Source: Chlorella sorokiniana (taxonomy: Eukaryota; Chlorophyta; Trebouxiophyceae; Chlorellales; Chlorellaceae). Taken from it: DNA of 64,000 bases. The stretch's first letter is position 1. Each line of letters starts with the position of its first letter. Below the pieces are notes generated by a model. The model was given only the letters and a program-made list of their open reading frames with translations, made no database searches and was not told the origin of the DNA. The DNA lies in the NCBI GenBank assembly GCA_025917655.1, contig CP084613.1, positions 930,001-994,000 on the forward strand. Direction: 5' to 3'. The translations under genes were made by a program, and so were the position numbers. Of this stretch, positions 3,056 through 7,868 are shown one piece after another.

Positions 3056-3065
3056 TATAATAAAT
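3056..3065 (+). promoter_or_regulatory. TATA-like element upstream of the permuted tRNA
   Basis: The A/T-rich stretch tataataaat stands out in GC-rich surroundings and lies about 35 bases before the leader that folds with the tRNA halves. Upstream TATA-like boxes are common at plant and algal Pol III tRNA genes. The assignment rests on position and composition only. Confidence 0.5.
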
Positions 3066-3093
3066 GTTAATAATGGAATATGGCACACTCCAT

Positions 3094-3121
3094 GTTCTAC
3101 CCTGCGCAGCAGGGACTTGCC
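3094..3121 (+). other. Leader of the permuted tRNA with intron-like fold
   Basis: Bases 3094-3099 (gttcta) are complementary to tagaac, which is the anticodon loop end plus the first trailer base (3234-3239). They are followed by a perfect five-pair hairpin, CCCTG at 3100-3104 with CAGGG at 3110-3114. A normal tRNA intron often pairs with the anticodon in the same way, presenting the splice sites to the tRNA endonuclease. Here leader and trailer together would play the intron's part. The pairing was found by eye; no folding energy was computed. Confidence 0.5.
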
Positions 3122-3238
3122 ATCCACTGGGGAAACCCGCGCAGGTTCGAGTCCTGTCGGTGTCGACCGATTATGTGTTCCTTTGAGTGGATAAACCCAA
3201 CGACACTGTGTCCGAGCGGTTAAGGAGGTGGACTAGAA
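3122..3238 (+). tRNA. Circularly permuted tRNA-Ser(AGA), 3' half before 5' half
   Basis: The 3' half (3122-3165) comes first, then a 36-base spacer (3166-3201), then the 5' half (3202-3238). Put in normal order they make a complete type II tRNA. Acceptor GACACTG (3202-3208) pairs with CGGTGTC (3158-3164), discriminator G3165. The D stem TCC pairs with GGA, with A14, G15, GG18-19 and A21 present. Anticodon stem GTGGA (3228-3232) pairs fully with TCCAC (3123-3127). Loop CTAGAA plus A3122 gives anticodon AGA. The long variable arm has GGG-AAA-CCC. The T arm is GCAGG-TTCGAGT-CCTGT. The halves join between positions 37 and 38, the canonical tRNA intron site. The B box (3144-3154, GGTTCGAGTCC) lies upstream of the A box (3209-3219), the reverse of the usual order. 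CCA is not encoded. The spacer would be removed by RNase P and tRNase Z after the ends are joined by tRNA splicing enzymes. That processing is known for permuted tRNAs and inferred here. Confidence 0.9.
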
Positions 3239-3243
3239 CTTTC

Positions 3244-3247
3244 TTTT
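3244..3247 (+). terminator. Pol III T-run terminator
   Basis: Six bases after the 5' half ends, the sequence reads ctttcttttg. The TTTT run is the normal RNA polymerase III stop and supports transcription of the two halves as one unit. Confidence 0.6.
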
Positions 3248-3278
3248 GTTTATTGCAGATGGAACAGTAGTAGCCACG

Positions 3279-3345
3279 GCCAGGGCCCCCAGGGAACGGG
3301 CCTGGGGCACCCCTTGGCACCTCAGGCCCGTTCCCGGGCCTGGCC
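3279..3345. repeat. Inverted repeat around 3292-3335
   Basis: GGGAACGGGCCTG (3292-3304) is exactly complementary to CAGGCCCGTTCCC (3323-3335) across an 18-base spacer, and the match continues imperfectly outward (ggccagg on the left, cctggcc on the right). It could form a strong hairpin. It lies about 50 bases past the tRNA terminator. It may be a mobile-element remnant or a structured RNA; nothing seen decides. Confidence 0.6.
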
Positions 3346-4085
3346 TCGCCCACTCAGCATCTGGTTCAGGGTGTCCTCAACGACGAGAGACACCCAACGC
3401 CTCTCCTCCTGGCAATGTCCAGATGCCTCTGAAGTTTGCTGACCTGAGACAACCCTGGTGGCTGCCCCAGCGACACATGGCGGCGGCGGCGCCGGCGGGC
3501 GACCGCGACGGCAGCGGCCGCGGGCGGCCCTGACGTCCTGATTTATTGATAGCAACGCCATGATGATGTGACACGACCGGCAAGCCCTCCCAAGGAGGCC
3601 ACCCGCTCCTGGGCGAAAGCGCTGTCGAGCAACAGCGAGCTTTGGTGGGTCTCAACGCATGGGATGCGATCGTCAAAACTGATCGAAGCGTTTTGACGCC
3701 ATGCGCCGGGCCTCCGACGCTGGGGCTGCCTCCCCCAGCAGGCACCGCCAGCGAGGCCAGCGCAGCATCGATGGCATAGCCTGGCGAGCACACCACGTGA
3801 ACCACTGCGCTGCAGCGGCTGCCCTTCAACGGCTGGCGAGTGATTGGGCCTCTTGCGGCACAGGAGGCACACCGCACTGCCATGCCCTGCCTCGGTCCAG
3901 CCCTCGCCCTTTCCATCATGCGGGTGCGTGTTGCACGAGGGCTAAGGCGCGAGGCGCGGGCATTAACGAGACACTGGGGCTCGCAGGCGACGCCCGGTTC
4001 ATGCACACAGTCAGCACTTGTTGCTCTGCTACCTCTAGGCTAACGCTGGCCACTCATGATGCTGTTCACTTCCTCAGCGGCCCCG
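3346..4085. other. Unexplained stretch, possible minus-strand coding remnants
   Basis: No recognisable gene. On the minus strand two short stretches have protein-like composition: about 3330-3420 (reading EERRWVSLVVEDTLNQML) and about 3546-3710 (reading ISFDDRIPCVETHQSSLLLD). They are in different frames and I cannot join them with clear splice sites. They could be exons of a fast-evolving gene or debris of an old insertion. Confidence 0.3.
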
Positions 4086-4734
4086 CTACTTTGTCTTCTC
4101 CTTGGCCTGCTTCTTGCTGGTCTCGCCCTGCGGGGCACGCGTGGCCAGCGCTGCAACACAGGCGGTGGGGAGGGCGGGGGAGCAGGGTAAAGGGCGGGAG
4201 CCGAAAGGCGGTTGCTGACACTGAGCGCCCCAGACGCGCCCTCCCCCGCCTCCTCCCCCTCCACCCACCCCCCACCACACACACACTCGGGCCGCCGCTC
4301 TCTCTCAGGCAGGTTTTGGCCACGACAGGCCATATTCACGCTGGCCATCCCACTCGTGCCCCTCCAGGCGGGTGCACTTGTCGCCGAAGAACCCCCATAG
4401 GACGTCTCAGCAACTGCTTTAGGGAGGGCAGCTTTGTGCCGCCCTGGCCTCATACACGCCCATCAGCCGCGCCCCCATCGCGCTCATCTGGTGGTGGGGT
4501 GTTGGAAACAAGCGGGGCCTGCACTGCAAGTGTAATCGGCAACAGCCAGGAAACCAGGCACGACAGCAGCCCCATGGCCTCACCGCTTCGTCGGGCAACG
4601 GCGCTGTTCCCACCTCTTTGATGTGAGCTGGCTGGCCATAGCTGTCGGCTGACCCGATGCGCTCGGGCCTCACGACCGCGAAGTAGCGTTGCAGGCGGCC
4701 AGCACACGGCTCTGAAGGCGCCTCCGCCAAGCAC
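4086..4734 (-). CDS. Possible spliced gene of unknown function
   Basis: Several minus-strand stretches look like exons. About 4690-4614 reads RYFAVVRPERIGSADSYGQP and ends at a good donor (gag|gtgggaac). A piece ending in a Pro/Asp-rich segment follows about 60 bases later. A piece near 4340-4400 reads GFFGDKCTRLEGHEWDGQ. The last piece ends ETSKKQAKEKTK and stops at 4086. Between the third and last pieces lies an apparent intron rich in GT and Pro-coding repeats. The frame between the second and third pieces fits only if the G run near 4394-4398 is one base too long. I do not recognise the family, and the start is not placed; the span given is a minimum. Confidence 0.3.
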
Positions 4735-5112
4735 CCATAGGAATGCTCACGAGTGGCGCGCCTGACTTCTTGCGGGTCAGGGGCCGCCCCGCCTGCCTGG
4801 AGCGCTCCCTGGAGCTGGGCTGTCCGGGGACCGCCTGCTTCTTCCAGCACCAGCACAGGTCCAAGCAGCAGCCCACACCAACCTCACAATTGGCATCCAG
4901 CCAGTCGCATTTCCTTGAAAAGCTCGTTAGTTCAAGTCCAGGCATCAAAGACTAGGTCAAGACGATGCCAGGGGTGCGGCAGGCACGCTGCGCGGGCGGC
5001 AGGAACTTTGAGTGGGGAGCTGTGCCGACAAGGGGTGGTAGCGTCGATGCAATTTCGCGCCTGTTTGGACGGCTGGGCACGTTGCTGCATGCCGTAGCCT
5101 CTTGCTACAGCC
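4735..5112. other. Spacer before the ankyrin gene
   Basis: Nothing firm is seen here. It may hold the first exon of the minus-strand candidate to the left and the promoter of the plus-strand ankyrin gene to the right. A box resembling a tRNA T-loop near 4929 does not form a T stem. Confidence 0.3.
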
Positions 5113-7868
5113 ATGGGCGGCGCCACACTGATCTGCAGAGTTGATGCTGTCGGCGACCGCTTCAAGGTAGCTTGAATCCCTGTATTCTCTGCACCACCAC
5201 ATTTGCCATCCGGTGCGGGCTGCCCTCACGCGCGCCTGCAACCTCTACGCCCCCGACTCCTGAGACTGTCGCCCGTGCTTGCTAGGTTGCGGTAACTCTC
5301 AACGGGGAGGTGCACGAGGTTTATCCGCTGCGTACTGAGGAGGAGGCGGCGGTGGTGTGCGACGCCGTCACGCGTGAGTTCCGTCGGCAATCGCTCCGCT
5401 GGCCGTTCTAAGACAGCACCCATACCTTCTGTGGCCGTTGAATGCAGTGAAGTGGGCTCTGGATGCGGGGCGGTCTGTTACGGCAGCAGATCTCCGCTTC
5501 CAGGATGATACGCCTGAGCTGCAGAGTGCGCAACTGCAAAGGTGAGCGTGCGTTGCAATTTGCTGCCTGTCGGCAGGGTTTGCATGATGATCAGTGCGGA
5601 CTGCACACTGGGCTCACCATGCGCAAGCGTTCCTGCAGGCTTCGCTTGGAGGCGCTTGCTGGTGGCGGCAGCCTGCAAGAGCCCCTGCTGGCTTTGCTGC
5701 AGCAGCTTGCCGACTGCGCTGCTAACAGTCATTCCATTTCCGAAGGTGAGGCTAGGTGTTGTTACGCTTGGTTGTGCACTGACATAGGGCCAGTGCAACC
5801 CTCACTGCATGGTTTTATGCCTTTCTTGCAGTGGCCCCTCCTCATGTGGCGGCGGTGGGCCTGCTGGGTGCAGCAGTGACGCTGGGGCATGACGCTGCGC
5901 TGCAGCTGTTGCTCTTGGTCATCCCGTCGGCAGCGTTGGCGAAAGTATGCCTATCAAGGGGGCAGAGGAGCCACAAACCGGGATATCTCCTGCACCTGGC
6001 AGCAGAGCGTGGCAGCAGCACGGGCGTGAGGACACTGTTGGCTGCAGCCCCCAAAGCTGTGATGCAGCCAGATGAGGCCGGCTGGCTGCCGCTGCATTTT
6101 GCTGCGGAAAATGGCCACACGGCAGGGGGCAGCAGCTGCTGACGGCAGCTGCTGAGGCTGCGATGCAGGCAAACGAGCAGGGCCGGCTGCCGCTGCATTT
6201 GGCAGCGCAGAATGGCCACACAGCTGTGGTGCAGCAGCTGCTGGCAACAGCTGCTGAGGCTGCGACAAGACCGGACGAGGAAGGCTTGCTGCCGCTGCAT
6301 TTGGCAGCGCAGAATGGCCACACGGCAGTGGCGCAGCAGCTGCTTTCGGTAGCTGCTGAGGCTGCTACAAGACCGGGCGACGAAGGCTGGCTGCCGCTGC
6401 ATTTTGCGGCGCAGAATGGCCACACGGCAGTGGTGCAGCAGCTGCTTTCGGTAGCTGCTGAGGCTGCGACAAGACCGGACGAGAAAGGCTGGCTGCCGCT
6501 GCATCTTGCGGCGGCAATTGGCCACACGGCAGTGGTGCAGCAGCTGCTGGCGGCAGCTGCTGAGGCTGCGACACAGCCAGATGGGACAGGCTGGCTGCCG
6601 CTGCATTTTGCGGCACGGAATGGCCACACCGCAGTGGTGCAGCAGCTGCTTTTGGCAGCCGCTGGGGCCGCGATGCAGGCAACTGAGGAAGGCTGGCTGC
6701 CGCTGCATCTTGCGGTGGCAAAAGGGCACACGGCAGTGGTGCAGCAGCTACTTGATGCTGCCCTACAGGCGGCGCTGGTGCCAGAGCCTGACGGTTTTCT
6801 AGCGCTGCATGAGGCGGCGGGGTTAGGCCACACGGCAGTGGTGCAGCAGCTGCTTTTGGCAGCCGCTGGGGCCGCGATGCAGGCAACTGAGGAAGGCTGG
6901 CTGCCGCTGCATCTTGCGGTGGCAAATAGGCACACGGCAGTGGTGCAGCAGCTACTTGATGCTGCCCCGCAGGCGGCGCTGGTGCCAGAGCCTGACGGTT
7001 GTCTGGCGCTGCATGGGGCGACGCTGTATGGCCACACGGCATTGGTACAGCAGCTTCTTGATGCTGCCCGCACGCGGCCTTGGTGCCAGCGCCTGACGGT
7101 TTGCTTCCGCTGCATGATGCGGCAGAGTTAGGCCACACGGCAGTGGTGCAACAACTACTTGTTGCAGCCTCAGAGGCCGCGATGCAGGCAACTGAACAAG
7201 GCTGGCTGCCGCTGCATTTTGCGGCGCAGAACGGCCACACGGCAGTGGTGCAGCAGCTGCTGGTGGCGGCCGCTGCGGCCGCAATGCAGGCAACTAAGCA
7301 AGGCTGGCTGCCAGTGCATGTGGCGGCGCAGAATGGGCACACCGCAGTGGTGCAGCATCTGCTGGTGACAGCCGCTGAGGCCGCCATGCATGCAGCTGAG
7401 GATGGTTTGTTGCCGTTACATCTGGCGGTGGGGAATGGCCACACATCAGTGGTGCAGCAGCTGCTGGATGCTGCCCCTGAAGCTGCAACGCGGGCAACAC
7501 GGGCAGGGAAGCTGCCGCTGCAGCTGGCGCTCCACCATGGCATTGGCGTTCCGCATTCTGCGGCTGCCAGCCTCCTTCTCCGTGCAGCAGCAGCACCCAG
7601 GGAAGACGACCTGTCCATTCTACTTGCTGCTGGTCCTTGCGGGCTGCACCTACTGGCCGATTTTTTGATTGCCCGAGTTCCTCTATCCCCTTCAGAGTGG
7701 CGGCGCATCCCAGCCCCCTGCCCAGGCATCCTGAGCGCCCTGGCAGCCGCTCTCACCTGGTCAGCAGACCAGGCCCCTGAGATTGTGAAGCGGCTGTCCC
7801 CGTCGATGCAGCGCGCCTGCGCACAACGTTGCAGTGCCTGCACGTCTCCCATCGTCGGCGCAGGGTGA
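5113..7868 (+). CDS. Ankyrin-repeat protein with about 16 near-identical repeats
   Basis: Five exons: 5113-5166, 5286-5373, 5448-5541, 5639-5745 and 5832-7868. All junctions are GT-AG and phases agree. The N-terminal 115 residues (starting MGGATLICRVDAVGDRFK) match no family I know. The last exon carries about 16 ankyrin repeats of roughly 33 residues, consensus GWLPLHLAAQNGHTAVVQQL, with the TPLH-like turn and GH(T/S)AVVQ helix. Neighbouring repeats are close to identical in DNA, and a unit near 6631 recurs about 204 bases later near 6835, a sign of recent tandem duplication. Two single-base losses break the frame, near 6130 and near 7070. Both fall within repeat copies whose sisters have the base, so they are either sequence errors or marks of decay. 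Ankyrin stacks bind proteins; no partner can be inferred. No membrane segment is seen. Confidence 0.75.

Follow-up and report, generated by a model that had tools for sequence, protein, structure and literature searches.

A probable circularly permuted nuclear tRNA-Ser(AGA) gene in the green alga Chlorella sorokiniana

Circularly permuted tRNA genes are uncommon; examples have been described in several algae, and a review that lists 34 of them also describes their maturation through a circular intermediate (PMC3978253). According to Table 1 of that review, a permuted tRNA-Ser(AGA) gene with its junction at 37/38 occurs in Micromonas pusilla and in the nucleomorph of Bigelowiella natans, and PMC4033280 names the same organisms. 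These two genes share with the locus described here the isoacceptor, the type II junction at 37/38 and the lack of an intron, while the spacer is 64 bp in M. pusilla, 5 bp in the B. natans nucleomorph and 36 bp here. Neither comes from a trebouxiophyte, since M. pusilla is a prasinophyte and the other genome is that of a chlorarachniophyte nucleomorph. In Cyanidioschyzon merolae, the layout, the junction motif, the T-run and the absence of an encoded CCA are the same as in our locus (PMC3978253). However, its TATA-like stretch lies within 50 bp upstream, compared with 58-66 nt here, and C. merolae also has junctions in the D-loop and in the T-stem/loop. The review credits the C. merolae pathway with biochemical evidence.

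Permuted tRNA genes were also reported in 2025 for Auxenochlorella UTEX 250-A (PMC12636532; preprint PMC12633428), which a taxonomy look-up placed among the chlorellacean trebouxiophytes. The same reports describe its tRNAscan-SE tRNA set as incomplete. The first-pass annotation of the DNA studied here had known of no permuted tRNA gene at such a locus in a Chlorella-like alga, a remark that does not hold in view of the Auxenochlorella reports and of the Ser(AGA) genes listed in the review. No further report for Chlorella-like algae was found among the titles and abstract openings of the mainly open literature. Both genomes contain tRNA genes with the halves in reverse order and an incomplete ordinary tRNA set, but the Auxenochlorella genome has 12 chromosomes and about 22.0 Mb per haplotype, compared with 38.8 Mb in 15 contigs for the present assembly. 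Permuted tRNA genes, permuted Ser(AGA) included, were already known from other algae, and this locus adds one more.

The window, which is the whole stretch of 64,000 nt that was analyzed, corresponds to C3:930001-994000. The tRNA-Ser(AGA) locus occupies window positions 3122-3238 on the forward strand and consists of a 44-nt 3' half (3122-3165; positions 38-73 and the variable arm), a 36-nt spacer that leads from the acceptor 3' end to the 5' end (3166-3201), and a 37-nt 5' half (3202-3238; positions 1-37). The spacer length is inside the range of 1-74 bp reported for permuted tRNA genes (PMC3978253). Because ACC follows the discriminator G, CCA is not encoded in the gene. Joining the two halves at 37/38 gave an 81-nt tRNA with the anticodon AGA, and its unconstrained minimum-energy fold was a cloverleaf with a 3-bp variable arm (-28.7 kcal/mol). 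All 20 tested stem pairs were formed (acceptor 7, D 3, anticodon 5, T 5). When the identical geometry was scanned at 127,766 window positions on both strands, the runner-up reached 18/20 pairs. These results agreed with the first-pass annotation, which had placed the 3' half before the 5' half at exactly these coordinates, set the join between 37 and 38, and described arms that pair throughout after rejoining. No tRNA was reported in the window by ARAGORN or, at the gathering cut-off, by Rfam, which is the expected outcome because the gene is permuted.

To search for this layout, a covariance model was built from colinear tRNAs of the same genome, located on nuclear contigs, which were cut at 37/38 and swapped. 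Sixteen of the 21 listed colinear tRNAs were used, the five others being second copies of an isoacceptor already included, and Ser(AGA) was excluded. At E up to 10, the sole match in the window was 3122-3238, at full length, with 44.3 bits and an E value of 5.7e-12. Applied to 46 other loci, the model produced 50 matches with an E value of at most 0.01, and the Ser gene and its copy described below accounted for two of them. The best of the remaining matches, with up to 46.2 bits, were closely spaced colinear organellar tRNAs, and the score of the permuted model alone is therefore not diagnostic. The case is thus based on how exactly the halves fit, on the junction motif and on the absence of any complete tRNA nearby.

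The bulge-helix-bulge is the target of the tRNA splicing endonuclease. When the cuts were placed at 3121/3122 and 3238/3239, nucleotides 32-37 of the tRNA and the flanks formed a central helix bordered by a 3-nt bulge on either side, and each cut fell between the second and third nucleotides of a bulge. The 5' flank strand, GGGACTTGCC (3112-3121, forward strand), pairs with nucleotides 32-35 (3/4) and with the 3' flank strand of the outer helix, TTTC at 3240-3243 (4/4), and is predicted to be removed on splicing. The central helix comprises C-G, a U-U mismatch, A-U and G-C, so that the junction is an hBHBh'-like, near-strict bulge-helix-bulge with 7/8 pairs. At least seven of eight pairs arose by chance with P = 0.0058 (200,000 draws, random flanks from the window). 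In the same fixed register, the permuted tRNA-Arg(TCT) gene described below reached 6/8 pairs and both permuted initiator tRNA-Met (iMet) copies fitted poorly (3/8), while the intron-containing tRNA genes reached 3 (Tyr), 5 (Arg(TCG)) and 5 (Leu(CAA), counted by hand). A C32:G-3 pair was present in five of the six tRNA species with a 37/38 join that were checked, namely the permuted Ser(AGA) and Arg(TCT) and the intron-containing Tyr(GTA), Arg(TCG) and Leu(CAA), with iMet as the exception. The unconstrained fold of the whole Ser precursor counts against a functional permuted gene, since its minimum is not the cloverleaf. In a longer precursor stretch, a competing CCCTGC/GCAGGG hairpin occupied part of the 5' flank.

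The upstream region contains a TATA-like stretch, TATAATAAA (3056-3064, forward strand), 58-66 nt before the 3' half, which may serve as an upstream Pol III promoter element. It lies in an AT-rich stretch: the GC content of the 80 nt from -90 to -10 was 0.39, compared with 0.66 for the window, and only 0.23% of the window 80-mers were equally AT-rich. A count of TATAWA motifs was set aside as evidence for the Ser gene, the stretch there being TATAAT. Downstream, a likely Pol III terminator, TTTT at 3244-3247 (forward strand), starts 6 nt beyond the 5' half; 12-nt stretches drawn at random from both strands of the window contained such a run with P = 0.009. No TTTT termination signal was found in the spacer (3166-3201).

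An identical copy of the permuted gene was located at C3:925248-925408 on the reverse strand, inverted and 7.7 kb away. The two copies lie in the near-identical arms of an inverted duplication of about 3 kb. One arm covers window positions 3091-6100 on the forward strand and starts 31 nt upstream of the Ser 3' half, and the other ends at C3:925417. The identity of the arms was 99-100% in each 100-nt bin from C3:933100 to 936099. Since near identity extends over the full 3-kb arm, the identity of the two Ser copies was rejected as a sign of selection; the duplication is recent, and the two copies therefore provide no evidence of constraint. The AT-rich upstream stretch with TATAATAAA is confined to the window copy, and the GC content of the last 100 nt was 0.47 in this copy versus 0.64 in the other.

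The duplicated arm also bears other sequences. An ankyrin-repeat coding stretch lies at its outer end (window 6076-7868), and the tandem repeats of about 100 nt in this stretch differ between the two arms. Window positions 4771-6000 are part of a dispersed repeat family, and related sequences occur on C2, C3, C5 and C6. Weaker matches to the arm were also found about 1.1 kb from tRNA-Glu (C3:4221948) and tRNA-Asn (C4:680373).

Searching the whole genome with the rejoined sequence (best candidates scored, E up to 10) matched the halves at two places only and gave no colinear tRNA-Ser(AGA). The identical ordinary copy that the first-pass annotation, in combination with missing junction reads, had regarded as a mark of a pseudogene was thus not found within the sensitivity of this search. 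Many colinear tRNAs lie on C1-C13, and the genes for Tyr(GTA), Arg(TCG) and Leu(CAA) are interrupted by an intron at 37/38. By eye, the intron is 34 nt in Leu(CAA) (39 nt by ARAGORN) and 31 nt in Arg(TCG), a locus that ARAGORN calls SeC with an intron. Two genes matched the splicing-endonuclease family PF01974 above the cut-off in a search of the assembly. Contig C15 is a plastid genome, with rbcL, minD, carboxyl-transferase (accD-type) and ABC-transporter genes. At least 120 relatives of the minD gene were listed, and the few that carried a species name came from Marvania (86% identity across 54% of the query), Picochlorum (85%), Edaphochlorella (81%), Microthamnion (82%), two Nephroselmis species (78% and 86%) and Chloropicon (80%). 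Because Marvania, Picochlorum and Microthamnion belong to the Trebouxiophyceae, the plastid sequence makes a trebouxiophyte likely.

Two further tRNA species were found in the permuted layout. A permuted tRNA-Arg(TCT) gene with a 12-nt spacer is located at C4:985653-985737 on the reverse strand (72.4 bits, E 5.5e-21 with the permuted model), with TATATA upstream and TTTTT downstream. Two permuted iMet genes with 58-nt spacers are located at C2:623010-623137 and C2:642157-642284 (reverse strand). They were recognized by hand, as the model gave about 23 bits and misaligned their 3' half. Their spacer contains a second T-arm-like stretch, GGTTCGA. The two iMet copies have just 11 nt in common upstream of the 3' half, are 94% identical from there over 823 aligned positions, and differ in the GC content of the last 100 nt upstream (0.49 versus 0.72). 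No colinear copies of iMet or Arg(TCT) were found in the assembly.

The survey behind these results combined several searches. RF00005 gave 64 matches over the genome, 20 of them on C1-C13 (19 above the cut-off and one below), and absence from this list means little because Pro, Glu, Leu and Val genes found later had been missed. D-arm patterns matched at 15 Ser-type, 8 Leu-type, 33 iMet-type, 10 Lys/Tyr-type and 5 Thr/Ile-type places. The permuted model was applied to 26 loci of the Ser-, Leu- and iMet-type sets (including 10 of the 33 iMet-type loci), to three of the 10 Lys/Tyr-type places and to all five Thr/Ile-type loci. Among these, Arg(TCT) was identified by the model and the two iMet genes by hand, and the remainder were colinear, intron-containing or without a tRNA. 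Ten land-plant-type tRNA queries matched Pro (4) and Glu (2) only, all colinear. The survey found no gene for Ser(GCT), Ser(TGA), Thr, Gly, His or elongator Met, so the permuted genes listed here are a minimum set. Among the iMet-type pattern matches on C1-C13, 18 of 33 were GTGGCGCAGCGGCAGCATG (e.g., C2:3069281), and the two such loci inspected resembled a shared repeat and not a tRNA. In addition, a truncated tRNA-Asn that lacks the 3' acceptor side lies at C4:677407-677468, about 2.9 kb from the intact tRNA-Asn (C4:680373), and the leaders of the two match.

Other explanations of the locus were considered. A rearranged pseudogene, in which pieces of a once normal tRNA-Ser gene now make no tRNA, would be consistent with the lack of the AT-rich upstream region in the second Ser copy, which suggests that one copy or both may be silent. 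However, this explanation is very unlikely for a locus with no mismatch in 20 tested stem pairs and with both the junction motif and a terminator. Furthermore, no other Ser(AGA) gene was found, yet UCU and UCC must be read, and Arg(TCT) and iMet have the same layout. It is less probable still that closely spaced colinear tRNAs have been taken for one permuted gene. Organellar tRNAs of this kind reach 46.2 bits with the permuted model, and permuted genes have been proposed to arise, among other routes, by tandem duplication (PMC3978253), but ARAGORN found no complete tRNA in the window and the acceptor strands pair 7/7. By eye, moreover, a D arm is absent just upstream and a T arm just downstream. 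We give no more weight to separate transcription of the halves followed by trans-splicing, as in split tRNA genes, without a circle. The pairing of the flanks would support trans-splicing equally, but the halves lie 36 nt apart on one strand, TTTT is absent between them and present after them, and the spacer has no promoter-like stretch by eye.

We therefore consider it very probable, as judged from the sequence, that 3122-3238 is a functional type II (37/38) circularly permuted nuclear tRNA-Ser(AGA) gene that matures via a circular intermediate. The observed sequence, the rejoined fold with its exact fit, the bulge-helix-bulge, the lack of a colinear copy in the search and the endonuclease-family genes make a permuted gene with a 37/38 join, as the first-pass annotation had proposed, the best reading. 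Transcription, circularization and translational use of this tRNA would follow the pathway described for Cyanidioschyzon, from which we infer the maturation steps. Pol III would produce a single transcript of flank, 3' half, spacer, 5' half and flank, stopping at TTTT. On paper, both flanks pair with each other and with the anticodon loop to form the bulge-helix-bulge. The tRNA splicing endonuclease would then remove both flanks, and a ligase would join 37 to 38 to close the circle. RNase P and tRNase Z would excise the 36-nt spacer, and after the addition of CCA the tRNA would read UCU and UCC.

As for the origin of the gene, the spacer and the trailer of the colinear tRNA-Ser(CGA) both start with ACCGA (P = 0.0006 for the anchored match, against random window stretches). 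The score of a 14-nt alignment of the spacer with this trailer had P = 0.0029. The origin model of the review involves a tandem duplication followed by loss of the outer halves (PMC3978253), and the ACCGA match is a hint that may fit such an origin. The stretch GGACTTGCC before the Ser 3' half was rejected as a relic of GGACTAGAA, as only 6/9 positions match. The Ser(CGA) leader also matches the Ser(AGA) 3' end over 9 nt, but this match was likewise rejected as an argument, since it may stem from the pairing of the flanks.

It is possible, although we hold this only tentatively, that permuted genes are the sole source of Ser(AGA), initiator Met and Arg(UCU) in this alga, and that the Ser and iMet genes were copied with a break 31 and 11 nt, respectively, before the 3' half, leaving one copy of each pair without the AT-rich promoter-like side. 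The tRNA sets of algae may therefore lack genes, as ARAGORN missed the Ser gene and the tRNAscan-SE set of Auxenochlorella is described as incomplete. Another Chlorella-like genome joins the short list of those with permuted tRNA genes. Our results suggest that essential tRNAs, initiator Met included, depend on circularizing precursors in this alga. The need for the permuted layout could be tested in Auxenochlorella, which is reported as genetically tractable.
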